DNA from: a virus
Strand: one strand, 5' to 3'
Length of the DNA: 64,000 nucleotides
IMG/VR virus record: IMGVR_UViG_3300042898_006156
Span: 49,560-113,559 of that record
Shown here piece by piece: positions 7,584 to 64,000 of the stretch. Positions within the stretch are counted from its first letter, which is position 1. Each line of letters begins with the position of its first letter. The position numbers and the translations under genes are program-made. A model generated the notes under the pieces. The model saw only the letters and a list, made by a program, of their open reading frames with translations, ran no database searches and had not been told where the DNA came from.

Positions 7584-8297
7584 TTGGACTTATTAGAAAT
7601 CAAGAAAGAGTGCAACAAAATTGAAAGAAACTTGATTGCACTCGAAATTGAAAGAAACGCCCTTGCAGCCCTTTTAGAAGAACAAGAACTTAAATTGCTA
7701 GAACTTGAAACTAAAAAAGATCATAATAAAAAGGGGCAGATATTTTTACGTATGAAAGCTGCTGACACTAGAGTTCAAGCCCTTGCATCTATTGAAGAAA
7801 TCGTCACCGCAGCATTAAAAGAAATGTATGGTGAAGACTATGTATTCTCTTTGGAATTGAAAGAAGTAAGTAGCAAAGAAGGCGAAAACACTGGTCTATT
7901 TACTATCTTACCTTGTGTTGAGAAATTGCATGATGGCAAAAGATCTAAGCGCCCAATCAAGGGTTCTAATGGTGGAGGCTTGATGGAGATTGTTAGTGTC
8001 CTCTTGCGTTTTGCATTTGGAACCTACAACAACTATGATAGTGTTTACGTACTTGATGAAGCATTCTCTGCTGTTTCTAAAGATGGAATAATGGGACAAT
8101 TGCTCATATTTTTAGACAGATATATTGCCGAATTAGGATTGCAAGTGATATTAATTACCCATTCTGCTGAAAGTTTTTCTCAAATTTCTGCACAGAATTA
8201 TCTTGTTTATAAAGAGGATGGTATTGCTAAGATCAAACTTGCATCTAGAGATGATATCCTTGAAATGCAAAGTTTGGCTATAAGCGCAAAAAAATGA
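7584..8297 (+). CDS. Rad50/SbcC-like ATPase, C-terminal half
   Basis: 237 residues from TTG 7584, preceded by GGAG at 7 nt. Residues 1-55 form the returning coiled coil. Then come the ABC/SMC signature-like GSNGGGLMEIVSVLLRFA (about 126-143), Walker B VYVLDEAFSAVS (about 153) and the H-loop LITHS (about 190). There is no Walker A, so it cannot bind ATP productively without the N-half at 5220-6347. Together the two make a full Rad50 head. The only other unusual point is the TTG start, just after the stop of the small coiled-coil gene, which suggests translation by re-initiation. The stop overlaps the next ATG (ATGA). Confidence 0.88.
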   Translation: MDLLEIKKECNKIERNLIALEIERNALAALLEEQELKLLELETKKDHNKKGQIFLRMKAADTRVQALASIEEIVTAALKEMYGEDYVFSLELKEVSSKEGENTGLFTILPCVEKLHDGKRSKRPIKGSNGGGLMEIVSVLLRFAFGTYNNYDSVYVLDEAFSAVSKDGIMGQLLIFLDRYIAELGLQVILITHSAESFSQISAQNYLVYKEDGIAKIKLASRDDILEMQSLAISAKK

Positions 8298-41697: not shown

Positions 41698-42693
41698 ATG
41701 GAAACTTCAACTGTTGATGTAGTTATTGGTATGCAGTATGGTGATGAGGGCAAAGGTAAAATTGCTAATCAACTGGTAAGTACTGGTAATTATGATTATG
41801 TCGTCCGCTTTAATGGTGGAGGCAATGCTGGTCATACAATTTACCTCAATGGAGAGAAAATTGTTACACACCTTGTTCCTTGCGGCATTCTGCATGGTAT
41901 TCCTAGTATCATCGGTAATGGTTGTGTTATCAATACGCAAAAATTATTTGACGAACTTAAATATCTTGAAGGATTTGGGTTTGACACATCAATCCTTAAA
42001 ATAGCAGAAAACGCACATATAATAACCCAAGATCACATTGACGAAGATTCCAAAGATACAAAAATTGGAACAACTCGCACTGGAAATGGACCTTGTTATC
42101 GAGACAAGTTTGCCCGTATAGGTCTTCGTGCCAAAGATGTTCCAGAATTAGCTCCATATCTTGTTGATATGCATAGTCTTATTCATTCTTCCCCTAAGAG
42201 CTTTTTAGCCGAAGGAGCTCAAGGTTATTGGCTTGATGTTGACTTTGGCGATTACCCTTATGTCACATCATCAAATACAGGTGTAGGAGCAGTATTAAAT
42301 AATGGTTTCAATTATAAGCAAGTACGGAATGTTATCGGGGTTATCAAGTGTTATTCTACCTATGTTGGAGCTAAAGGATACCAAAAAGATGACGAGCGAT
42401 TTGAGCAGCTCAGAGAAATTGGTCAAGAGTATGGAGCCACGACAGGACGACCAAGACAAATTGACTGGCTCAACATCCAAGAAGTTATAACTGCTTGTCA
42501 AATGAATGGTGTTACTAAACTCATCATTAATAAAATGGATGTTCTTCGACAAGTTGACAGTGCTTGGAATTATTACGAAAACAATATGTTGATTTCTTGT
42601 GCAAATGAAGATACATTTGTTTCTAATATTTCGAAAGAAGTTGGAATGGTACTTCCTGGTATATTTATCCAATTCCAAGGGCAACTACATTGA
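41698..42693 (+). CDS. Adenylosuccinate synthetase family (PurA or PurZ-type) enzyme
   Basis: 331 residues. N-terminal P-loop-like IGMQYGDEGKGKI with catalytic-type Asp16, then FNGGGNAGHTI, HLVPCGIL, TGNGPCYRDK, EGAQGYWLDVDFGDYPYVT and TGRPRQIDW. Bacterial PurA is about 430 residues; this shorter length is closer to archaeal PurA and phage PurZ forms. PurZ makes 2-amino-adenylosuccinate for diaminopurine genomes and is reported to lose the equivalent of Asp16; here it is kept, so PurA or a PurZ0-like enzyme fits better. No dATPase (DatZ) or DpoZ is in the window. The stop overlaps the clamp TTG start. Confidence 0.85.
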   Translation: METSTVDVVIGMQYGDEGKGKIANQLVSTGNYDYVVRFNGGGNAGHTIYLNGEKIVTHLVPCGILHGIPSIIGNGCVINTQKLFDELKYLEGFGFDTSILKIAENAHIITQDHIDEDSKDTKIGTTRTGNGPCYRDKFARIGLRAKDVPELAPYLVDMHSLIHSSPKSFLAEGAQGYWLDVDFGDYPYVTSSNTGVGAVLNNGFNYKQVRNVIGVIKCYSTYVGAKGYQKDDERFEQLREIGQEYGATTGRPRQIDWLNIQEVITACQMNGVTKLIINKMDVLRQVDSAWNYYENNMLISCANEDTFVSNISKEVGMVLPGIFIQFQGQLH

Positions 42694-46285: not shown

Positions 46286-46966
46286 ATGGAATCAAAAAAA
46301 GAAACTGTAGATGCACTCATTGTTCCTGATGAAGGACCAAAGAAAGCATCTAAAATGTTCAGGGATTTGAAAGAAGGGGACAAACCATTAGCGCCTCTTC
46401 CCCCTGATAATATGAGTGATATATCTTATCCTCAATTTATGGAACCAAGATGCGCAATTTGTACTTCACCTTTCAGAGATTTGGTAGAACACGTATATCT
46501 TGATTCTGGACGTAAAAATCAATCAGTAATTAGATTCTTCCTACAGTATTTTGATGCACAGATGAACTGGATGCAGATTAATACTCACATGGAACAACAC
46601 TGTGATTTCAAAAAAATCTCAACTTCAGGTCTTAAAAATTATGAGCAAAGGGAAGAACTTATTGCTCCTTGGATTTTTCGTGAACATCATCTTGCCTTGA
46701 CTGCATTACTTGTAGAACTTGATGATGTAAGAGGAATTGACTGCTCTAAAAACAATGATATGAAGCTTAAAAGAGCAGCAATGGTAGAAAAGTTAATTTC
46801 TAAAATCTTACATCTTAAAGAAGTAAGAGATAATCAAGGTATTTATAATATCAACATTTTCGAAATTCTTGCTAAATTGCACGAAAAGATGGATTCTGAA
46901 AATGATAAAAGAATTATTAGAGAAGAAATTGTTGCTTTAAGAGAAAAGATCCAACAAGATAATTAA
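46286..46966 (+). CDS. Possible small terminase subunit with a Cys/His motif
   Basis: 226 residues from ATG 46286; an upstream in-frame TTG lies in the terminator. Residues about 50-110 contain MEPRCAICTSPF and THMEQHCDF, a C-x2-C...H-x3-HC array that may bind zinc, followed by helical segments and a C-terminal coiled coil (SENDKRIIREEIVALREKIQQ). It overlaps the large-terminase start by 1 base. Position and size suit a small terminase (DNA recognition), but there is no direct family match. Confidence 0.5.
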   Translation: MESKKETVDALIVPDEGPKKASKMFRDLKEGDKPLAPLPPDNMSDISYPQFMEPRCAICTSPFRDLVEHVYLDSGRKNQSVIRFFLQYFDAQMNWMQINTHMEQHCDFKKISTSGLKNYEQREELIAPWIFREHHLALTALLVELDDVRGIDCSKNNDMKLKRAAMVEKLISKILHLKEVRDNQGIYNINIFEILAKLHEKMDSENDKRIIREEIVALREKIQQDN

Positions 46967-49077
46967 TGAGAAAACAAACACAAGTTCCTAAATCTCCAAC
47001 AGAATTAAGAAACCAATTACTTCAACAAGCCAATACAGTAACAGAATTATTTAAGGGTACTGAATATGCAGATGATTTTGTTGACGAAATTGCTCCTGCC
47101 ACAAGATCAGAAGTCGCTCCTCCATTAAAGCCACCTAAAGACAGATTTAATCCTGATCAAATTGTAGATATTATTACATTTATCGAACATCCCTATTTTT
47201 GTAATCTAAGACCTTATCCTTGGCAAAAACTTATATTAAAGTGTTTTTATATGGGACAAGAAGGCAATACTAATCTTGTAATCAATGAATCTGATAATCA
47301 AGAAGATTGCAAGGGGTGTGTTTGGGATTATGTTCAAAAGAATGAGAATGAATTTTTAAAATCTCGTTCAGAAAGTAAGCAATTTAAAACAATTTTTAAT
47401 GTTGTTAATTCTCCTTGTTTGCAATGTAAGCGTCTTGATAATAATGTTAGAGAAGAAAGATATAAATATGCCAAAGACGAAGCTACAAACCCTGATGCAG
47501 AAAGACAAGTAGAAGTATTAGAAGCAAGACCAATTATTGATGGTTTTCAAAGTGAGTTTGATTTACTTTATTCTGAAGAATTTGATCCAAAATTGAGAAT
47601 GCAAGTTCAAGAGAAATGCACTAAAAGATATAAATTTGAAGAATTAGTTTTAGTACTTGGCAGACGTTCAGGAAAATCATTCCTAGTGTCTGCTATGGCT
47701 CTTTATGAATTATATAGATTGATTTCTATGGGACATCCTCAAGCAAGATATGGTTTGATGGAATTTGATGAAGTTGTTATTCTCAACGTTGCTCGTAATG
47801 AAGAACAGGCTAAAAAAGCAATCTTCTCAAAAATCAAGCAAACAGTTTTAGCTTCTCCATTTTTTGCACCTTATATTGGCAAAGATACAGAGCTTGAAAT
47901 GAGATTCTACACTGAACACGACCGGGAAGAGAATGTAAGAAGAAAAGAGCAAAATATCAATCTTTTTGCGGGTTCTTTAGTATTACGATGTGGTTCTAGT
48001 AATGCTTCAGGTCTCGTTGGTTTAACTTGTTGGACAATTATTATGGACGAAGTTGCAGCAATGGCAGGAGACAATCCTGAATCTGGTGTTGACTATGCTC
48101 TTTATGATGATTTGAAGCCATCTCTTGCTACATTTGGTAAAGACGGAAAGATGATGCTTCTTTCCAACCCCAAAGGTCCTCTTGGGTTACTTTATGATTT
48201 GCACGAGAATAGACAAGAAGATCCTACTACACTTGTTATGAGACTACCAACTTGGCTTACTAATCCAAACATTGATAAAGAATGGTTAGACGGTCAAAAG
48301 AAAAAAGATCCTCAAGAATTTCAAATGCAATATGGTGCAGAGTTTGGTGCATCATCATCTGACCCAATGTTCAATGTTGAAGATGTTGACAGAATGTTCT
48401 CTTCAATGTCTATGGTGAAAAGAAAAGAACAAGCAGAAGGACATTTTGAATATTTTTGTCATTTAGATCCTGCAAGAACTTCAGATTATTACGCCCTTGT
48501 TATTGCTCATACAGAAAATATGTATGGTCAAATTGGTCCTGATTTTCAGCCATTAAAAAGAGTTGTTATTGATCACATTCATTTTTGGAATCCAAGAACA
48601 AAAAATCAACCCGTTAAAGAAAAAGATGTTGAAGATTATGTAATTGAATTGCATAGAAAGTTTAAATTTAAACAAGTAAGCATTGATCAATGGAATTCTC
48701 AATCCTCTCTTATAACTTTACAATCACGAAGAATTCCTATCGTAGAACGTCAATTCAATAAAGAATATAAAGAGAAAATTTATACCGAACTTTCTCAACT
48801 AGTTCGAGATGACCGAATTGATATTTATGATTTATCTGGTGGTGAATATCGAGATTTAGATCACAGATTGATATCTTTGAATGAGATTCAAGAAGCTAAA
48901 ATTCAGTTTTTGTTTTTACAAAAGAAGTGGAAAGGTAAAAGATATTACATTGAAGCTCTATCAGGTTACAAAGACGATATTTGTGATGCTGTAGCTGCTG
49001 TTGCTTACGAATGTCTTACTTCAAAAATTATGATTAGATTACCAAGATCAAAAATGGTCAATCTAAATAGGCGATAA
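46966..49077 (+). CDS. terL: Terminase large subunit with zinc-knuckle insertion
   Basis: 703 residues. ATPase: Walker A LVLGRRSGKSF (about 232), Walker B TIIMDEVAA (about 357), coupling motif LLSNPKGP. Nuclease: FCHLDPARTSDYYALVI (about 498), QVSIDQWNSQ and KDDICDAVAAVAY carry the RNase H-like metal ligands. N-terminal insertion between about 110 and 155 holds CKGC and CLQC, two C-x2-C pairs likely to bind zinc. It packages DNA into the prohead by ATP-driven translocation and cuts it at the ends. The order terminase then portal is the usual late order. Confidence 0.95.
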   Translation: MRKQTQVPKSPTELRNQLLQQANTVTELFKGTEYADDFVDEIAPATRSEVAPPLKPPKDRFNPDQIVDIITFIEHPYFCNLRPYPWQKLILKCFYMGQEGNTNLVINESDNQEDCKGCVWDYVQKNENEFLKSRSESKQFKTIFNVVNSPCLQCKRLDNNVREERYKYAKDEATNPDAERQVEVLEARPIIDGFQSEFDLLYSEEFDPKLRMQVQEKCTKRYKFEELVLVLGRRSGKSFLVSAMALYELYRLISMGHPQARYGLMEFDEVVILNVARNEEQAKKAIFSKIKQTVLASPFFAPYIGKDTELEMRFYTEHDREENVRRKEQNINLFAGSLVLRCGSSNASGLVGLTCWTIIMDEVAAMAGDNPESGVDYALYDDLKPSLATFGKDGKMMLLSNPKGPLGLLYDLHENRQEDPTTLVMRLPTWLTNPNIDKEWLDGQKKKDPQEFQMQYGAEFGASSSDPMFNVEDVDRMFSSMSMVKRKEQAEGHFEYFCHLDPARTSDYYALVIAHTENMYGQIGPDFQPLKRVVIDHIHFWNPRTKNQPVKEKDVEDYVIELHRKFKFKQVSIDQWNSQSSLITLQSRRIPIVERQFNKEYKEKIYTELSQLVRDDRIDIYDLSGGEYRDLDHRLISLNEIQEAKIQFLFLQKKWKGKRYYIEALSGYKDDICDAVAAVAYECLTSKIMIRLPRSKMVNLNRR

Positions 49078-54539: not shown

Positions 54540-56201
54540 ATGGACAAGGGATATAAAATCAAAGCTACATACGAGACTCACGATCCTAAAAAAATTCAAG
54601 ACATTATGGATAAAAAACCATTAGTCGGCGGAACTGGATTACTTAGTATGCTTCAAGACACAATTGCTGGACTTGGAGATGGTGATTCTACGCCAATGTC
54701 TTCTCCTTTTCACGTTTTAGATATGAATGATTTTGGTGATGATCCAGTAATTTCAGCTTTTAAAAATATGGGTGGACCAGAAAATATCGTAAAGATTGTC
54801 GCCCTTCCTGGAAAAGAAGCACATCATCATTTGCATCACGCTTTTAATAAATTGAATAATATAAAATTAGCAGAAGAAAGAAATACTCTTCGTTATGCAT
54901 ATATGGCTTTGCAAAACTTTTTAAACAAGAATAATGAAGCAGCCAGATTAGAAAGAGTAGCATACAAATCAACAGATAAATCTGCTGGATATTGGCAAAT
55001 CGAAGCCATCAATTCTTTGGATAAACTCAAGAAATTTGCATCCACTTCCTTGAGAATTTCTAAACTTGAAAGTGCTAGAAATGTTGTTTTATCAGGAAAC
55101 AAATTACAAACTACTAAAGTATCAAACTATTTACATAATTGGTATTCAGAAATCACACCAAAAGAAAATAGAAGAGTAGCTTACACAACATTATCAACAC
55201 AAGCAAATGAGCCTTATTTACTTTGCCCTAAAGGTAAATTTCAAGGATATAAATCTCCAATCCCTATGGAAATTTCAAAATGCCGTGAGAACTGTATTGA
55301 CTCCAGAGTTGATAAAGAAGGACACGTTACTTGTGCATATCAAGATTGGCTCAAAGTAGCTTTCCAATCACATGATGAAGTTATGGCAAGATTAGATGTT
55401 CATAAACATCCAGATAATGAAGCTAATGCCCTTGAGCTTAAAGAAGGCGAAAGATCCAAGAAACTTACTGAAGGTGAAATTGGATTCGAAGCTAGATTTG
55501 AAAATTCAGATAGAGGCGCTAATAAAATCAGAGGCAAGCAAAATGTCGATGATTCTAGAGAAAAACAATTATCAGATGCCAAACAATCAAGCTATGGTCA
55601 TCAACAAGGCGATAAGCCAGTTATGCGCCCAAAACAAGCTCAATCTGACACTAATAAGACAATCGATTCACAATTACCAAGAAAAGATCAAAAAGGCACA
55701 GATTACCTTGAAATGCTTTTGAGGAAATTGAATGATAAAGAATCTGTAACAGATGAAGTTAGAGAAAATCAACTTGATTCTGATGGTCTTTACAATCATC
55801 GTGGTGAGATGGAAGAATCTTATGCTGATCAATTAAATGTGAAGGGTAAAGATCCAATCAATTACAGAGATGAATTGAATAAGAATAAAAATGAGCCAAA
55901 AGATTCTATTATTCATCAATTAGATAAAAATATTACTGCTTCTAAAAAAGAAATGAATCAAGAACAAATTCTCAATGAAACCAGAAAGAAAAATGTTGTT
56001 GATGTATCTAGAGACAAGCAATTAGAAGACAGAAGACAAAATACAAAAATTACCAAAAATATTGAAGCGCTTTTAGATGCTGAAGATGAAGACAGTATAG
56101 GTCATCATTTTTCAGAAGAAGATCTCAAAAGATTTGCTGATGAACTTGGTTTAGACTACATTATGGAATCTAAAAGAGAAGAATACGACGATGTGGTATA
56201 A
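54540..56201 (+). CDS. Structural-module protein with repeated RExQL-type motifs
   Basis: 553 residues. First 250 residues folded with CPKGKF...CRENCID...CAYQDW cysteines (about 230-270); then a charged region (about 280-500) with recurring motifs: SREKQL, VRENQL, SRDKQL, and shorter variants YADQL, IIHQL. The same motif occurs in the 59247 protein. This looks like short linear motifs or cleavage sites in a disordered tail. The stop overlaps the next gene. Family not recognised. Confidence 0.72.
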   Translation: MDKGYKIKATYETHDPKKIQDIMDKKPLVGGTGLLSMLQDTIAGLGDGDSTPMSSPFHVLDMNDFGDDPVISAFKNMGGPENIVKIVALPGKEAHHHLHHAFNKLNNIKLAEERNTLRYAYMALQNFLNKNNEAARLERVAYKSTDKSAGYWQIEAINSLDKLKKFASTSLRISKLESARNVVLSGNKLQTTKVSNYLHNWYSEITPKENRRVAYTTLSTQANEPYLLCPKGKFQGYKSPIPMEISKCRENCIDSRVDKEGHVTCAYQDWLKVAFQSHDEVMARLDVHKHPDNEANALELKEGERSKKLTEGEIGFEARFENSDRGANKIRGKQNVDDSREKQLSDAKQSSYGHQQGDKPVMRPKQAQSDTNKTIDSQLPRKDQKGTDYLEMLLRKLNDKESVTDEVRENQLDSDGLYNHRGEMEESYADQLNVKGKDPINYRDELNKNKNEPKDSIIHQLDKNITASKKEMNQEQILNETRKKNVVDVSRDKQLEDRRQNTKITKNIEALLDAEDEDSIGHHFSEEDLKRFADELGLDYIMESKREEYDDVV

Positions 56202-56724
56202 GCAAGTTTTGGCCCAATTTGGTGGTGGTGTTAATTTTTCAGAAGAAGAAAAAGTTGATTCTCAAAACAATTCTGAAATTTACAACATTAGAGATGTAGA
56301 CAACGAACCTGCTGGATTATATGATGAATTGTCAGGCATTCTTGAAAAAATGGGCAAAACACTTGATGAATATTACAGTATGAATCAAATTCAACAAAAA
56401 GAAATTTGGGATTTACTTGTTGATCGTCCTCACAGAATGACCATGGATAACACTGGAAATTTTATCAAGTCTCCACAATCCGCATCGAATGAAGCACGTA
56501 GACATTCTCCGTTTCACGAGAATCCAGAAGAAACAACCTTAGAAGAACAACTTAGAGGATCTCAACAAGAAAATAATAATAGAGATCCACAAAGTATGGC
56601 TTCTACAGAAAAAGGTAATAGTTTTCAACATTTCAAGAATGGAGAAGGATATTATCAAGCACTAAAAGGCAAGCAAGATCCTATCCTTTTTGGAAACAAA
56701 CCTTCTAATCAAACTTGGTATTAA
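56191..56724 (+). CDS. Tagged protein with MWYK start in the virion module
   Basis: 177 residues beginning MWYKQVLAQFGGGVNF, so the MWY tag, typical of the minus-strand proteins, also occurs on a virion-module gene. The body is acidic and Asn/Gln-rich, with LEEQLRGSQQ near 125, another QL motif. Its start lies inside the previous stop region (11 base overlap). Not recognised. Confidence 0.72.
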   Translation: MWYKQVLAQFGGGVNFSEEEKVDSQNNSEIYNIRDVDNEPAGLYDELSGILEKMGKTLDEYYSMNQIQQKEIWDLLVDRPHRMTMDNTGNFIKSPQSASNEARRHSPFHENPEETTLEEQLRGSQQENNNRDPQSMASTEKGNSFQHFKNGEGYYQALKGKQDPILFGNKPSNQTWY

Positions 56725-56757: not shown

Positions 56758-59121
56758 ATGGCAAATAGAACATCTTTGGCTTCTGCTATCAGAACAGCAG
56801 CAACACAAGTATCAGGAGCATCAACAACTTCATCAACTGTAGATAGAAATTATGCAAGCAGTCGAATTGGTTTAGGTTTAGGACCAGGCGTAACAAGAAC
56901 TGCTAGTTTAAATACAGTTACGACAGCTCCTAATTTCTATTCGCCATTTTTAACTCCATCATCATTCCAAATTCCAAATGCTCGTCGTGAAGTTTATCTT
57001 TGGGCTAACTGGTGGAGAAATAACGAACCAAAAATTGCTGCAGCTGTCAATTTTTACACCAACTATCCATTCTCTGGTTGGAAATTAGAATGTTCTTCTT
57101 CTTACGTAAAAGACTATTTTGAAAAGTTAGTAGAATCACTAAACTTTCAAAAATGGCTTCCTGAAATTTCCAAAACATATCACTTACTTGGTGATTCATT
57201 TGTTTTGCTTTCTCTTGATTGTCCACATTGTCAAGGGTCAAACTGGGACGATGATAAAAATCAAGAATGTGAACACGATGGTGCAACTTGGAAATCAATA
57301 TCAATTCTTAATCCAGATTCTGTAATTAAAAGCCCAGGCATGATTGATCAGCCTGGAAGTTATGCTTACAGACCATCTGCAGAAGAAACTAGAATTGTAA
57401 ATGAAAGACATCCTAAAGAAGTCTATGACAAGATTCCTGATGATATCAAAAAGATGATTATCCAGGGAAATCCTATCAAACTTAATCCGATCTCTATTCA
57501 TCATTTTAAATACGGATCAAACCCTTGGGAAGATTATGGAATTTCTATGATCAGACCATTGTTTCCAATTTTAACTTACAAAGATAAACTACGTCAAGCT
57601 CAATATATGATTGCTGAGCGTCTTATTTTACCAATCAAGGTTGTAAAAATTGGTAGTGATACAAGACCAGCATCACAAGAAGATATTGACAATGTTCAAG
57701 ATGAATTGGCATCTATTGCAAATGATCCAAACTTAACTCTTGTAACTCACCACAATTTTGATCTTGAATGGTATGGAGCTACAGGAAAAATTCATCCTCT
57801 CACTGGTGAATTTGAATTAATTGAGCAAGAAATTTTAGATGGTGTTATGCTCAACAAAGCTCTCTTGAATGGTGAGGGTCCAACTTATGGCAATGCTCAA
57901 GTTGGTCTTCTTGCAATGGCTCAAAGATTAGAGACTTTTAGAAGAGAAGTTGCACACTGGATTGAGCAAAATGTTTTTATGCCAGTTGCTAAATGGAATG
58001 GCTTTGTAATTGAGGGTGAAAGAGGTCAAGACGAATTAGTTTATCCTAAAATTAAATTTGACGATCTTCAATTACGAGATGATACTGGCAAGCTTCAAAT
58101 GCTTGTCACTGCAAACCAAAATGGTGTTATATCAAATGTTTCTCTTATAGAAGCTTTTGGTTTAGATTCTGATCAAGAAATTGAAAGATTAAGGTTTGAA
58201 CAAGGTGCAAACTTTATGAATGATCAAAATTTTGGTACTCCTAATGTTTCATTAAGCTTTCAAAGTGGTGGCGTTACTGGACAAGGCTTTGGGGCAGCAC
58301 CTACAGATATGTTAGGTGGGATGGGAGCGCCTCCACCTGCTGATTTAGCTGTTGGCGGAGCTGCTCCACCACCAGCAGCCGCTCCTCCAGCTCCAGGTGC
58401 TGCTCCTGCTCCAACAGCATCAACTATGACTAAAAATTACAAGCTAGCCAGTGCAACGATAAATGAAATTTATGATGAAAGAATTAATGCAAAAAATTCA
58501 AGTGTAAGAACTGCTAGTAAAAGAATTAAGTCTGCTGCCCATGAATATTTCTTGATGTCTTTGACTCCAGTGACTGGTAGAGGTTCTCTTGGTCCTCTAC
58601 CAAGTGAATATGATGGATTATTTGGTTCAATACAGATTCCACTTTGTGGTGGAGATAATTCTCATCCATTAAATAATTATGCTCTGGAAGAAATATATCA
58701 ATTTGCCAATAATGATAATGAAGCTATCAAAAAATATGCAAAAAAGAAAGTAGACGTTGCACAACAGCCAAAAATGTTTACTGGCCTAGAAAAGAAATTA
58801 TATGGTTTGACAATGTCTTTAAATATGCCATTTCCTCTATATGCTCAATATTCTGCTGGTCCAACTATGGATTATCAATTAGACGCTGCAATTCCTAACT
58901 TAAAAATTGGTATAGAAGCAGATGGAGAAATTTGGCATAACAATCCAGATAAAATTGCAAAAGATAAACGTAGAGATTCTGAACTAGCTGCAAATGGATG
59001 GATTATTGTAAGATTTACTGATAAAGAAATAAACGATCATCCACAAGATTGTTTGAATGTTCTTATAAAAGCAATAAAGAAACGAACAGGTATGGGTGAA
59101 GGGAATTCGGAATATCTATAA
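56758..59121 (+). CDS. Portal protein fused to a DUF559/Vsr-like nuclease domain
   Basis: 787 residues. Portal part (about 60-560): YLWANWWRNNEPKIAAAVNFY, GDSFVLLSLDCPHC, ILNPDSVIKS, YGISMIRPLFPILTYKDKLR and LDGVMLNKALLNGEGPTYGN, as in large-phage portals. A Pro/Ala/Gly linker (about 515-555) follows, then helical segments and, at about 690-770, a DUF559-like domain: YAQYSAGPTMDYQLDAAIP, then LKIGIEADGEIWHN, KDKRRDSELAANGWIIVRF and DKEIND, with D, E-x-D and Lys in nuclease positions. The fusion is unusual. An IRTAAT site near residue 13 and RTASL, RTASK sites further in. Confidence 0.85.
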   Translation: MANRTSLASAIRTAATQVSGASTTSSTVDRNYASSRIGLGLGPGVTRTASLNTVTTAPNFYSPFLTPSSFQIPNARREVYLWANWWRNNEPKIAAAVNFYTNYPFSGWKLECSSSYVKDYFEKLVESLNFQKWLPEISKTYHLLGDSFVLLSLDCPHCQGSNWDDDKNQECEHDGATWKSISILNPDSVIKSPGMIDQPGSYAYRPSAEETRIVNERHPKEVYDKIPDDIKKMIIQGNPIKLNPISIHHFKYGSNPWEDYGISMIRPLFPILTYKDKLRQAQYMIAERLILPIKVVKIGSDTRPASQEDIDNVQDELASIANDPNLTLVTHHNFDLEWYGATGKIHPLTGEFELIEQEILDGVMLNKALLNGEGPTYGNAQVGLLAMAQRLETFRREVAHWIEQNVFMPVAKWNGFVIEGERGQDELVYPKIKFDDLQLRDDTGKLQMLVTANQNGVISNVSLIEAFGLDSDQEIERLRFEQGANFMNDQNFGTPNVSLSFQSGGVTGQGFGAAPTDMLGGMGAPPPADLAVGGAAPPPAAAPPAPGAAPAPTASTMTKNYKLASATINEIYDERINAKNSSVRTASKRIKSAAHEYFLMSLTPVTGRGSLGPLPSEYDGLFGSIQIPLCGGDNSHPLNNYALEEIYQFANNDNEAIKKYAKKKVDVAQQPKMFTGLEKKLYGLTMSLNMPFPLYAQYSAGPTMDYQLDAAIPNLKIGIEADGEIWHNNPDKIAKDKRRDSELAANGWIIVRFTDKEINDHPQDCLNVLIKAIKKRTGMGEGNSEYL

Positions 59122-59172: not shown

Positions 59173-59246
59173 AAATTTTACAGGTTTTAATATGTTAAAA
59201 ATAGAACAAATCCTATTGATAACTTTATTTTTTGAGGATTGAATAT

Positions 59247-62200
59247 ATGTACAAGGTTGCAAAAGGAGGAGCTATTACTATTAATAGTTTTCTCAACGAA
59301 AATGACCGAAATATAGCTAGAGATTATATTATTAAGACTGCTTCATCTAATATGAGAGAAGCTGCTAAAATTGGTCTTCAATCTCTATATGCTGATCCAA
59401 AAGAAGTCCTAGAAAAATACAAAGATTTTGACATCGTTAAAGAAATGCAAGCTCGTAAAGGTGCAAAACTTTTATGGGTTAGAGCTAGAGCAATCGATGC
59501 AGATGTTGTAAATGCTAATGGAGACTTATTTTCTAAAGAAGAACTCCTAAAAGAAGCTGAAATTAAAGGCCAAAAAATTCCAGCTTATAAGACTTTTGAA
59601 GGTGTTCCAATTTACACCAATCATAAGAATGACGACATCGAACAGGCTAAAGGTATGGTTGTTTACGCAGAATGGGACGAAAAAGAAAATTGCGTATACT
59701 GCACATTCTTCGTAGATGAAGAAGCTTATCCTGATATTGCAAGAAATATTCGTACTGGCGTAATTCACGATGTTTCAATGGGTGCAAGTGTTGAATGGGG
59801 TGTCTGTTCAATTTGTGGTAATAAAGCATACACTGAAAGAGATTATTGTGAACATCTTAAGAAGTATAAAGGCAAGATTTATCCTGAATCTGGCAAAAAA
59901 GCATATGAAAAGAACTATGGTGTTAAGTTTATTGAATTAAGCTGTGTAGGCGATGGTGCTTTTGAATCTTGTGAAATTCAAGAAATTTATGATGTCGATG
60001 ATGTTTTAGACGCTGCAATGAATTTGGAAAAGAAAGCAAATGAACTTTCTGCAAATATTGTTTTAGCGTTGCAAGGATCTCCACTAGAATCTTCTATAAG
60101 ACCAGAATACGAAAATTGTTTAAGAGTAGCAAATTCTACAGCTAAAACAGCAGTAAGGTTAGCACAACAAGCTGGCACTCTTGTTGGTGGTCCTTTATTA
60201 GCAGGAGCTGGAGCAAATCAAAATTCTACTGTTCAAGCAGTATTGACAGCGCTTGGTATAGATCCTGCTTCTGGATTGAACATTCTTGACTTAATCAATT
60301 TATCACTAAATTTCTTGGAAGTTGCAGTGATGAATATGTTTGCAAGAAAAGATAACGTTGATTTAGGGCATGTTGGCAAAATCACCAAATCAATGGCCGA
60401 ACTTCAATCTACCATGCAGGACATGATTGACGACGGAGTTGATGTTGGGAGTGGACAAAGACCACAGCAAATCAATCAACCTCAAAATATGCAACAGGGG
60501 CAAGCTCCACAAGCTTCTCCTATGAATGCAAATGTTGGTCTGGCTAATTATGCACCAACTGAATCTGTAGGTAAGGTAATGGACCTTACCTATTCTGGAG
60601 ATCAAGGCAGTCAAGTTGGAGGCGGTGTTGCTTTAGCCTCTAGCAATCACAATTTGGTCTGGGCTTCAAGAGACGGCAAAAGAGAAGTTTTTGCTAGTAC
60701 TCAAAAAAGTTCATCTTCCAATAGAATTTTGAATTTTTCACAAAGCATATTAAATTTAAAAGAAAATTTAAACAACGATGCTCAAATTCAAAAAAGTATT
60801 GATAATGTCATTAGAGTTGCTAATGAGAGAAGCAAAAATATAAAAACAAATACGCCTTTTGTGGCGGGGAGCAGAAATCAAATGGATCACTTTGCAAAGA
60901 TTGCATCAGAGCAAAGAAAAAAACTTGCTGCTGCAGTTACAATCGATTTTAAAGTCGAGGATAATGCAGGTAATAGAGTTGTTCTTTCTACTGACGGGTC
61001 AATCACGGGTTACACAAATGGAAAAAGAACTACTTGGGAACCTATCCTAAATGAAAACCAACTTGGTTTAATGGAAAATGGACAAGGAACAAGAGTTGCT
61101 GCAGAATTGCTCAAGGACTACTCACATTTTATCAAGACTGCTTTGCTTGATGTCAAAGAAAGACTTGATGACAGAGAGAGCCAACTCAATGAAGTCAGAG
61201 GCGGTGAGTCATATGATAATTTATATGAAGGTGTTAAATCAAAGAACACTGGCACTGTAAATGAAGTTCGTGAGAAGCAATTAGAGCCTAAACAAACAGG
61301 TGCAAGCCAAGATTGTGTAAGAGAAATTCTTCTTGGAGATGCTGGACTTTATGGTAGAAGAGTAAAGGATGAAGAAGTTCGTAAGTCCTTAACTCAATTA
61401 ATTGACGAAGTTACTCACGGTGTTCCAACTGAAATTTTAGAAAAGCAATTGTCAAATCATCGCACAGAAGGATCTGCTAGTGCAAATGAAATTATGACAG
61501 CAACCATTACTGCATTAGGTAAGGCTGTTATTTCTTCACTAGAAACTCCTAAAACAATTCTTCGTGTTGCGCAAACATTATCTGAAGAGCCAATGCTTCC
61601 AGAAATGATTGGAACTGCTGCTGCTGGAACAGAAATGGAAGCAGATAAAGCAGAAAAGGTAGATTTCTTTGGTGGAGATGCTTCACCAGAAAATTCAGTT
61701 TCCGCTGTTATTAAGCAATTAGGTGCTGCTGTAACTTCTGAAATCACAGCTAGAGATCTTGCTGATGCACTTTCAGTTGCAGTTGAAGAAGGTGAAATGA
61801 CTAAAGAAGGCGTTTCAAGAATCGCTGAACTTCTTATGGGTCAAGCATCTGTTCCTGGAGAAGGTTTGGATGTTGAAACTGCACCTTCAAAAAATGAAGA
61901 ACTCAAGTCTGCACTTATGTCTGCTGTAGATGCTGATGTAGATCTTATCTCCAAAGATGATCTCAAGTCTGCTATTTCTGCTATGGCAATGTCCTCTAAA
62001 GAAACTGGCACAACTCCTGATGAAGTAGTTGATTCTGTTGAAGCAATGCCAGAAAAACAATTAATGGCTGCTATCGATAGAGCAAAGACAGCTACAGCAA
62101 CTGACGGAAGATTAAGATCAAGAGCTAGAAGAGAATTCTGGGGTGTCAAAACTGCATCAACTAAAAGTGTTTCTGAAAATGTTGTTGGTTGGTTAGCAGA

Positions 62201-63383
62201 TTATTCAACAAATTTTGGAATTAGCACAAGAAGAATTGCAAAGGCTGCAAAGAGACTTTGTGAAGAATTTGAAGTTGCACAGAAACTTGTTGCCAAGGCT
62301 GTAGTTGCTTCTGAAAGAACAGCTGGTATGACTGTAACTCAAAGCAAGTCTGATTGTATTAGATTTATGTGTAGAGCTGAAGATCTAAATGGCACACAAC
62401 CAAGCGATAGTAATTTTGATGAGTCTTTCAAGCAAAAAGCTATTGAAGTTCTTCAAGGACATGGATTCCAAGTTGATCCAGGCACATTCTCATTCACAGA
62501 CTTGATTGTTTCTGAAAATGGTGATGTAACAGCAACAGTTTCTACATCTTCCTCAAAAACTTTCAAAACTGACGAAGAATCTGTTGAAATGAATGTTGAA
62601 GATAACGCAGAAATGCCAGTTATAATGACAGAGGGTGCAAGATTAGCTAGAAAGTCTAGAAGAGATGATATTTTAGCGAAATACGCACAAGCCATGCCAG
62701 GAATGGGAGCTCCAGCTCCTCAAGGTCCTGCAGCTGGTCCAGTTGATCCAGGTTTGGGTGGTGGTGCTCCTGCTGGTGGCGATTTAGGTATTTCTTCACT
62801 TACTGGTGGCGCTGACATGAATGAGTCTGCAGATATGGATGCAGTAACAGAGCCTGGTGAAAAGAAGCCTTGGGGTTCTGTTTGTCCAGTTTGTGGTGCT
62901 GATGATGTAAATATTTCAGAATCAAATGCAGACTGCCAAAGCTGTGGAACTACATACAAAATTCTTCAACAAATTGAATTAATTTCAATGGGTGATAAGG
63001 GTAAAACCTCACCTGAAGAAGATCCAATGGGTCTTGGTCCTGATACAGGTTTGGGTGCTGCAACTGCTCCTGCTGAATTACCAGCTCCTGCACCAGCTGC
63101 TCCAGGAATGGGGCCAGTTGCTTCTGATATCAGAACAATGGTTAGATTGTCCGCTACAGTTGATTCTGATGTCTATTTGAAGACTGCATTACCATCGTTT
63201 GATAGAACTGCAGAATCAATGCTTCCTGTCGGTATGGTTTGCCCATCTTGTGGTGATAGAGAAGCACATAAAGTCAAGAATAATACATTCTGTTACAAGT
63301 GTGGAAATTATTCAAGAACAACTGTACAAGCATCAAAGAAAGATCCATCAAAGCTTGATGTATCCATTACTTGGATAGATTAG
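59247..63383 (+). CDS. Prohead-protease-like polyprotein with zinc ribbons
   Basis: 1378 residues from ATG 59247, 10 nt after GAGG; an in-frame TTG five codons upstream is rejected. Residues about 50-240 resemble phage prohead proteases: LWVRARAIDADVVNANGDLF, PIYTNHKNDD (His, about 126), HDVSMGASVEWGVCSICG (Ser about 177, with zinc-type CSICG...YCEH). Then a long, low-complexity and helical region, with VREKQL and LEKQL motifs, and two C-terminal zinc ribbons: CPVCG...CQSCG (about 1213) and CPSCG...CYKCG (about 1332). Phage proteases are usually 200-300 residues, so this is an unusually large fusion, perhaps protease plus scaffold cleaved in maturation. Confidence 0.75.
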   Translation: MYKVAKGGAITINSFLNENDRNIARDYIIKTASSNMREAAKIGLQSLYADPKEVLEKYKDFDIVKEMQARKGAKLLWVRARAIDADVVNANGDLFSKEELLKEAEIKGQKIPAYKTFEGVPIYTNHKNDDIEQAKGMVVYAEWDEKENCVYCTFFVDEEAYPDIARNIRTGVIHDVSMGASVEWGVCSICGNKAYTERDYCEHLKKYKGKIYPESGKKAYEKNYGVKFIELSCVGDGAFESCEIQEIYDVDDVLDAAMNLEKKANELSANIVLALQGSPLESSIRPEYENCLRVANSTAKTAVRLAQQAGTLVGGPLLAGAGANQNSTVQAVLTALGIDPASGLNILDLINLSLNFLEVAVMNMFARKDNVDLGHVGKITKSMAELQSTMQDMIDDGVDVGSGQRPQQINQPQNMQQGQAPQASPMNANVGLANYAPTESVGKVMDLTYSGDQGSQVGGGVALASSNHNLVWASRDGKREVFASTQKSSSSNRILNFSQSILNLKENLNNDAQIQKSIDNVIRVANERSKNIKTNTPFVAGSRNQMDHFAKIASEQRKKLAAAVTIDFKVEDNAGNRVVLSTDGSITGYTNGKRTTWEPILNENQLGLMENGQGTRVAAELLKDYSHFIKTALLDVKERLDDRESQLNEVRGGESYDNLYEGVKSKNTGTVNEVREKQLEPKQTGASQDCVREILLGDAGLYGRRVKDEEVRKSLTQLIDEVTHGVPTEILEKQLSNHRTEGSASANEIMTATITALGKAVISSLETPKTILRVAQTLSEEPMLPEMIGTAAAGTEMEADKAEKVDFFGGDASPENSVSAVIKQLGAAVTSEITARDLADALSVAVEEGEMTKEGVSRIAELLMGQASVPGEGLDVETAPSKNEELKSALMSAVDADVDLISKDDLKSAISAMAMSSKETGTTPDEVVDSVEAMPEKQLMAAIDRAKTATATDGRLRSRARREFWGVKTASTKSVSENVVGWLADYSTNFGISTRRIAKAAKRLCEEFEVAQKLVAKAVVASERTAGMTVTQSKSDCIRFMCRAEDLNGTQPSDSNFDESFKQKAIEVLQGHGFQVDPGTFSFTDLIVSENGDVTATVSTSSSKTFKTDEESVEMNVEDNAEMPVIMTEGARLARKSRRDDILAKYAQAMPGMGAPAPQGPAAGPVDPGLGGGAPAGGDLGISSLTGGADMNESADMDAVTEPGEKKPWGSVCPVCGADDVNISESNADCQSCGTTYKILQQIELISMGDKGKTSPEEDPMGLGPDTGLGAATAPAELPAPAPAAPGMGPVASDIRTMVRLSATVDSDVYLKTALPSFDRTAESMLPVGMVCPSCGDREAHKVKNNTFCYKCGNYSRTTVQASKKDPSKLDVSITWID

Positions 63384-63421: not shown

Positions 63422-63537
63422 GCTTGAAAAAAGGTGTAAAAACAAGTTATCTAGAAGATAAAAAAAAGTTTATGAATAACTAATTTATAAATTCTTTGAT
63501 AAAAGATTTTATTTTTATTAAGGGAAGCAGCATAAAA

Positions 63538-64000
63538 ATGAATAAAAATTCGAATAAAGCCAATCAGGGAAAATTTGCAGCAATGAGATTAGCTGAAATT
63601 AATGCAACTGATAAGGAAGATCTTATGAACTGCGCTTCCGACATGGAAAAGACAGCATCTTTGAATACCAATGAAGCTGTCGTTGTCGCAAAAGCAATCA
63701 GAGCAAAATATCTTCCTAATATTGCAAGACAAGCTGGTCTTAACGTTTCAAATTTAGACCTTGATCATGGCAAAGAGACTGTTGACTTCGCAAACGATGA
63801 ATCTGATGATGAAGAAGATGATATGGAATTTCATCACTTTACGAGTGATGAAGATTCAGAAGATGTAGATGACGATGACATGTCTGATGAAGATATGGAT
63901 GACGAAGACGAAGTAGAAGATAGTGATGATGTCGCCACTTTTGAGATTGAAGTTCCCGCTGATATGGTTGACCAAGCACAAAAAGCTGTGCAAGAGGCGC
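63538..64000 (+). CDS. Acidic scaffold-like protein, 3' end beyond the window
   Basis: About 154 residues visible, from ATG 63538, 10 nt after AGGGAAG. It begins MNKNSNKANQGKFAAMRLAE, has MEKTASLN near residue 43 (a KTAS site), and then a strongly acidic stretch (EEDDMEFHH..DEDSEDVDDDDMSDED). Low complexity, helix-forming and acidic, as in scaffolding or prehead core proteins, and it sits where the scaffold is expected, after the protease and before the major capsid gene that should follow. Open at the window edge. Confidence 0.7.
   Translation, partial: MNKNSNKANQGKFAAMRLAEINATDKEDLMNCASDMEKTASLNTNEAVVVAKAIRAKYLPNIARQAGLNVSNLDLDHGKETVDFANDESDDEEDDMEFHHFTSDEDSEDVDDDDMSDEDMDDEDEVEDSDDVATFEIEVPADMVDQAQKAVQEA

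Follow-up and report, generated by a model that had tools for sequence, protein, structure and literature searches.

Few machines of tailed phages are as conserved as the portal, which is commonly regarded as a passive channel; in known phages, the portal ring consists of twelve subunits, with the C-terminus on the capsid-interior (wing/crown) side. Effector delivery from the head has been proposed for MuF toxins and is known for T4 Alt. The wing and crown of known portals are enclosed by the capsid, and in T4, GFP fused to the portal C-terminus is tolerated at up to approximately half of the portal positions (PMC9958956). DNA-cutting enzymes have also been described in connection with head assembly; T4 endonuclease VII interacts with the portal protein gp20, freeing stalled Y-DNA while packaging proceeds (PMC10893049), and T4 gp4, a nuclease with the REase fold, is required in head morphogenesis (PMC7824862). 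At the locus described here, the portal protein and a predicted nuclease domain are encoded as one polypeptide.

The window analyzed (i.e., the whole stretch of 64,000 nucleotides) comes from a virus record in IMG/VR that is 113,559 bases long and probably a fragment. One gene on the plus strand (56758–59121, stop codon included) encodes a protein of 787 aa in a single open frame without internal stop codons, with the same start and stop as given in the earlier note; its product consists of a portal core (residues ~56–490), a linker (~491–671), and a nuclease domain (~672–782). The portal core (residues 56–490; 56923–58227, plus strand) was identified by profiles and by predicted fold. Residues 56–420 matched the portal protein profile phrog_16240 (E = 5e-33) in the PHROG search, residues 234–467 matched Pfam Portal_Mu (33.4 bits; cut-off 23.9), and a full-length model of moderate confidence (mean pLDDT 69.5) matched many solved portals in Foldseek, including those of lambda, T4, and G20c (E = 6e-9 to 1e-6; TM-score by target length of approximately 0.5); the N-terminal tail and the linker are predicted to be disordered in this model. 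The gene is located in a packaging and head module, with the gene for the large terminase subunit (TerL) approximately 7.7 kb upstream and a protease-bearing gene next downstream. Three ATG codons in the linker (codons 557, 599, and 673) were inspected by eye, and no purine-rich, Shine–Dalgarno-like stretch was seen just upstream of any of them; a by-eye comparison of codons 557 and 673 showed that these two methionines are not conserved among relatives.

The earlier note had proposed that this portal carries a DUF559/Vsr-like nuclease at its C-terminus after a linker, and profiles, predicted fold, and conservation all agree with this assignment (residues 672–782; 58771–59103, plus strand). 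DUF559 (PF04480) matched residues 704–773 with 28.4 bits (curated cut-off 20.6), and REase_MTES_1575 (PF18741) matched residues 705–773 with 37.5 bits, just below its cut-off of 38.2; both families were matched by all 37 aligned diverse relatives (E ≤ 0.01). A profile search of PDB sequences with the nuclease domain retrieved 3hrl (E = 1e-9) and 3r3p (E = 3e-8), and the AlphaFold2 model of the domain, built from a 38-row alignment (mean pLDDT 83), had as its nearest PDB folds I-Bth0305I (3r3p; E = 2.4e-4, TM-score by target 0.72), NGO0050 (3hrl; 0.74), and Vsr (1vsr; 0.52). Chance similarity or misannotation of the nuclease was ruled out by these profiles, the fold, and the conservation.

The motif set of the nuclease is E678 - Q697 - D709 - E720-x-D722 - H727 - D736..R739-D740. 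Eight of these residues (E, D, E, D, H, D, R, and D) are invariant among 37–38 aligned diverse members in alignments A5 and A6, namely a helix glutamate (E678; 58789–58791), D709 in an LDxAIP motif (58882–58884), E720 and D722 in an EADG motif (E720-A721-D722; 58915–58923), H727 (58936–58938), and D736, R739, and D740 (58963–58977), all on the plus strand. A PD-(D/E)xK-type motif set had previously been suggested at residues ~690–770. Conserved catalytic-type motifs are indeed present, but the position of the lysine in "(D/E)xK" is occupied by an aspartate, and the invariant E, D, ExD, H, and D..RD positions suggest a Vsr/EDxHD-like enzyme rather than a classical PD-(D/E)xK nuclease. The domain begins earlier than had been suggested, at residue ~672, because the invariant E678 belongs to it. 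EDxHD enzymes are metal-dependent nucleases, as reviewed previously (PMC3943268).

The Gly/Pro/Ala-rich linker (residues 491–671; 58228–58770, plus strand) is fast evolving and mostly of low confidence, with pLDDT < 50 over residues 485–525, 527–554, 581–590, 601–611, and 618–626 of the full-length model, and contains a short conserved patch (TGRG...LP) at residues ~604–615. In the clade of the window, the linker is also enriched in [KR]xA[S/A] sites, with two clade-conserved copies; the linkers of other clades lack such sites. Peptides of this type are enriched in the portal (56758–59121), the protease-bearing protein (59232–63383), and the protein that follows it (63496–63999), and represent possible maturation-cleavage sites; they are over-represented in the folded portal core as well, and visual inspection of the N-terminus of the major capsid protein in one relative, a protein itself recognized by eye, revealed no such site. 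The nuclease might be released by proteolysis at the linker sites during maturation. Another recurring peptide, of the [E/R][K/N/S]QL type (SREKQLSDA, VREKQLEPK, ILEKQLSNH, and SRDKQLEDR), was found in the proteins encoded at 54540–56201, 59232–63383, and 56191–56724, with 4 occurrences versus 0.1 expected and 5 versus 0.2 in two of these structural-module proteins and a single occurrence in the third; this peptide is perhaps a docking or processing motif.

Queries against IMG/VR comprised the full portal, the nuclease, and portal-core alignments on their own; the portal-core searches allow no bias toward nuclease-bearing members. Among the portals identified, 85 distinct ones carry the nuclease, 8 lack it, and 7 are truncated by contig ends. 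The same nuclease family is present in all 85 fusions, which stem from many uncultured phage contigs of up to 548 kb; an assembly artefact or a one-off fusion was therefore ruled out. In the comparison with other portals that the earlier note had suggested, portals of the same family without nuclease are confined to the phage G group (phage G and three relatives), three distant cultured or assembled phages (Tunturi_5, LR745208, and Rctr197k), and L062. In L062, one in-frame TGA in the linker (7651–7710) separates the portal from an otherwise complete nuclease frame, while the frame is intact in its close relative L204; this TGA may represent a sequencing error or a real loss. Because L062 is the only case of such a split and the frame in the window is single, two separate genes were ruled out for the window, in agreement with the earlier reading of one gene rather than two separately translated proteins.

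With the queries used, and within the limits of that collection and of search sensitivity, no record combining a portal with this nuclease was found among 50,697 phage genomes, nor was such a fusion found described in the open-access literature, consistent with the earlier statement that portal fusions of this kind were not known. No relative turned up when 84,980 genomes of bacteria and archaea were searched with the portal core. Among 12 large records of relatives, the portal nuclease is the sole DUF559 match in 11, and one record contains a second match. The portal cores of many relatives are broken by at least one intein-like insert (L129, L130, L131, L134, L138, L270, L281, L316, L318, L363, and L398), and DUF559 is found as the endonuclease of inteins in MuF head proteins of other phages (L271, 3483–6218; L274, 3231–5525; Pfam Intein_splicing and DUF559). 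The portal of one phage G relative (L369, 4671–7718) carries an unrelated C-terminal extension of approximately 390 aa without convincing family match, as if a different cargo were attached at the site used by the nuclease.

In a tree of 46 representative portals, the fused portals and L062 are located on one side of a branch with support of 100/98, and the phage G group is located outside. As the only remoter outgroup is a long branch, the rooting of this tree is uncertain; a single gain of the nuclease would thus be the simplest reading, with loss in the phage G line as the alternative. The portal-borne nucleases cluster apart from other phage DUF559 proteins (support 90/85), and the distances between cores and between nucleases are strongly correlated (r = 0.95, 70 sequences; 0 of 2000 permutations as high), as expected for one old fusion that would have been inherited vertically. 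Median dN/dS, calculated over 38 non-independent pairs, was nearly equal in the core (0.022) and the nuclease (0.023) and reached 0.091 in the linker; purifying selection on the nuclease is as strong as on the portal core, and the nuclease is therefore constrained like the portal itself.

The gene next to the fusion (59232–63383, plus strand; 1383 aa) encodes a protein with a head-maturation-protease-like N-terminal part (residues ~57–250; phrog_18299, E = 1e-21) and a long, low-complexity, zinc-ribbon-bearing remainder; the protease part comes after the portal in most relatives checked. TerL is encoded at 46966–49077 (plus strand; phrog_2, E = 4e-29), and its RNase H-like nuclease motifs (HLDPART, SIDQWNS, and DDICDA), as read from the sequence, look intact. 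Pfam Terminase_6N did not match in any of 10 records, in which TerL was found by PHROGs instead. The resolvase families searched were RuvC, endonuclease VII, RusA, Hjc, and T7 endonuclease I. RuvC was found in phage G, which lacks the fusion; the 12 fused genomes or records gave no match. RusA-like matches were found in five fused records (two above the family cut-off and three weak matches below it, one of them in the record from which the window comes) and endonuclease VII in two others; several fused records, which may be incomplete, have neither. Replacement of the TerL nuclease was rejected given the intact-looking motifs, and replacement of a resolvase was rejected given the lack of clean complementarity between the fusion and these families; the portal nuclease thus does not appear simply to take the place of the TerL nuclease, and a resolvase is not clearly replaced either. 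A short adenylosuccinate synthetase gene (41698–42693; 331 aa) is located directly upstream of the gene for a DNA polymerase processivity factor; its product is PurA-like and keeps the catalytic GDEGKGK motif, and because the PurA match is far above that to PurZ, a modified-base genome by way of this gene was rejected. No bS21 gene, which would have suggested a link to bS21-phages, was seen in the structural region.

We propose, with a probability of approximately 0.5, that the fused portal holds an active DNA-processing nuclease on a tether, most likely within the head, and that this nuclease serves packaging or head maturation. Each portal subunit would carry, at its C-terminus, a flexible tether and an EDxHD/Vsr-type DNA endonuclease, and, in the ring, up to twelve nuclease domains would sit at the inner opening of the DNA channel. 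There, the nuclease may act on DNA during packaging or once it has settled in the head, by cleaving at branches, junctions, nicks, or mismatches or by trimming an end; it would be a built-in counterpart of the T4 endonuclease VII that binds gp20 and frees stalled Y-DNA. We infer the interior location, the copy number in the ring, and metal-dependent DNA cutting from known families; a position inside the head near the channel mouth is suggested by analogy with the interior wing and crown of known portals. A conserved DNA-handling role is favored over a variable weapon by the near-universal presence of the domain, its uniform type, its strong constraint, and the fact that no obvious immunity gene was seen (the downstream neighbor is the protease gene). 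Of the two hypothetical functions raised in the earlier note, DNA resolution in packaging and attack on host DNA, the evidence as a whole leans toward the housekeeping one. Several points argue against a role in packaging. A DNase that faces packaged DNA needs restraint through specificity, modification, or timing; packaging junctions form outside the head while the tether starts inside, so that the geometry of debranching is not obvious; the phage G group manages without the domain; and no essential gap is evident, since TerL apparently keeps its nuclease and several fused genomes contain RusA-like matches, three of them weak, or endonuclease VII. More tentatively, this lineage of huge phages may have made the endonuclease a catalytically active and integral part of the portal ring; the channel for packaging and ejection would then cut DNA itself, and the packaging motor would have a covalently built-in enzyme for debranching, proofreading, or end processing.

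The nuclease could also be a cargo that rides in the head on the portal, is freed by the neighboring prohead protease or carried along by the exiting DNA, and, once inside the host, cleaves the DNA of the host or of competing phages. The protease-like domain encoded by the next gene, the two conserved sites in the linker, the extension of L369 at what looks like a cargo site, and the published precedent of MuF toxins, which place C-terminal effector domains on portal-proximal head proteins (PMC5576092), are all consistent with this. This is the main rival reading, although we consider it less probable than a role in packaging or maturation; across a deep clade, the domain varies little in type, presence, or catalytic residues, unlike polymorphic toxins; in addition, no immunity gene was seen, dN/dS is as low as in the portal core, and the linker sites are found in one clade only, with no such site seen by eye at the capsid N-terminus of the relative mentioned above. 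Another reading is a domesticated but still selfish homing endonuclease; an endonuclease that was once free-standing or part of an intein would have joined the portal gene and would cut portal alleles that lack it, thereby spreading itself or excluding co-infecting phages. Such an origin would agree with the intron homing endonuclease I-Bth0305I as the closest solved structure, with the DUF559 domains in the inteins of MuF head genes, and with the intein-like inserts in the portal cores of several relatives. The presence of homing genes is usually patchy, and they tend to decay; the co-divergence with the portal core (r = 0.95), near-fixation across the clade, and selection on par with a structural core make continued selfish activity improbable here, and a Pfam scan of the window protein detected neither intein splicing blocks nor a NUMOD-type DNA-binding part.

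A domain that serves only as a DNA-binding clamp or a structural plug at the portal mouth would avoid the risk of a DNase resident in the virion, and portals with DNA-contacting crowns exist (PMC9958956). A module that only binds DNA should have lost some of its catalytic-type residues, whereas all of the acidic ones and the histidine are invariant in the 37–38 diverse members; a non-catalytic role appears still less probable than a selfish one. The least probable explanation, which we regard as very improbable, is that the portal nuclease acts as the sole cutter in place of the terminase nuclease or a Holliday-junction resolvase; the distribution of RuvC, found in phage G and in none of the 12 fused genomes or records, would fit this, but the TerL of the window keeps the expected acidic motifs, and the RusA-like matches (three of five below cut-off) and the endonuclease VII genes in two other fused records speak against it.

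Both parts of the fusion belong to known families, whereas we did not find its architecture, depth, and constraint described in the open-access literature. In huge phages, an enzyme domain conserved on the portal would tie the processing of DNA to its packaging or delivery; the 12-kDa domain would be a clear candidate for resolving branched or damaged DNA when very large heads fill, and the fusion would serve as a sequence marker of this uncultured, phage G-related lineage. The portal core belongs to the same family as Bacillus phage G gp14 (28.8% identity over residues 1–486, E = 1e-56), which also has a Gly/Pro-rich tail of the same kind and a homologous head-protease region nearby; gp14, however, ends in this low-complexity tail and carries no nuclease. 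The nuclease shares its fold and its invariant acidic and histidine residues with I-Bth0305I (3r3p), NGO0050 (3hrl), Vsr (1vsr), and the DUF559/REase_MTES_1575 nucleases, but those enzymes are free-standing, intron- or intein-encoded, or fused to helicases, while the present one is located on a virion portal. MuF polymorphic toxins likewise place enzymatic C-terminal domains on a portal-proximal head protein (PMC5576092); their carrier is MuF rather than the portal (Pfam Phage_Mu_F did not match the window protein), their toxin types vary widely, and they are found in temperate phages. T4 gp4, the head-completion nuclease, resembles the portal nuclease in its REase fold and its association with the virion (PMC7824862), but is a separate, TnsA-like protein outside the portal. 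T4 gp20 with endonuclease VII (gp49) likewise brings a DNA-junction nuclease to a portal (PMC10893049); gp49 is a separate, non-covalently bound protein of another nuclease family, whereas the nuclease described here, with its predicted activity, is part of the portal chain itself.
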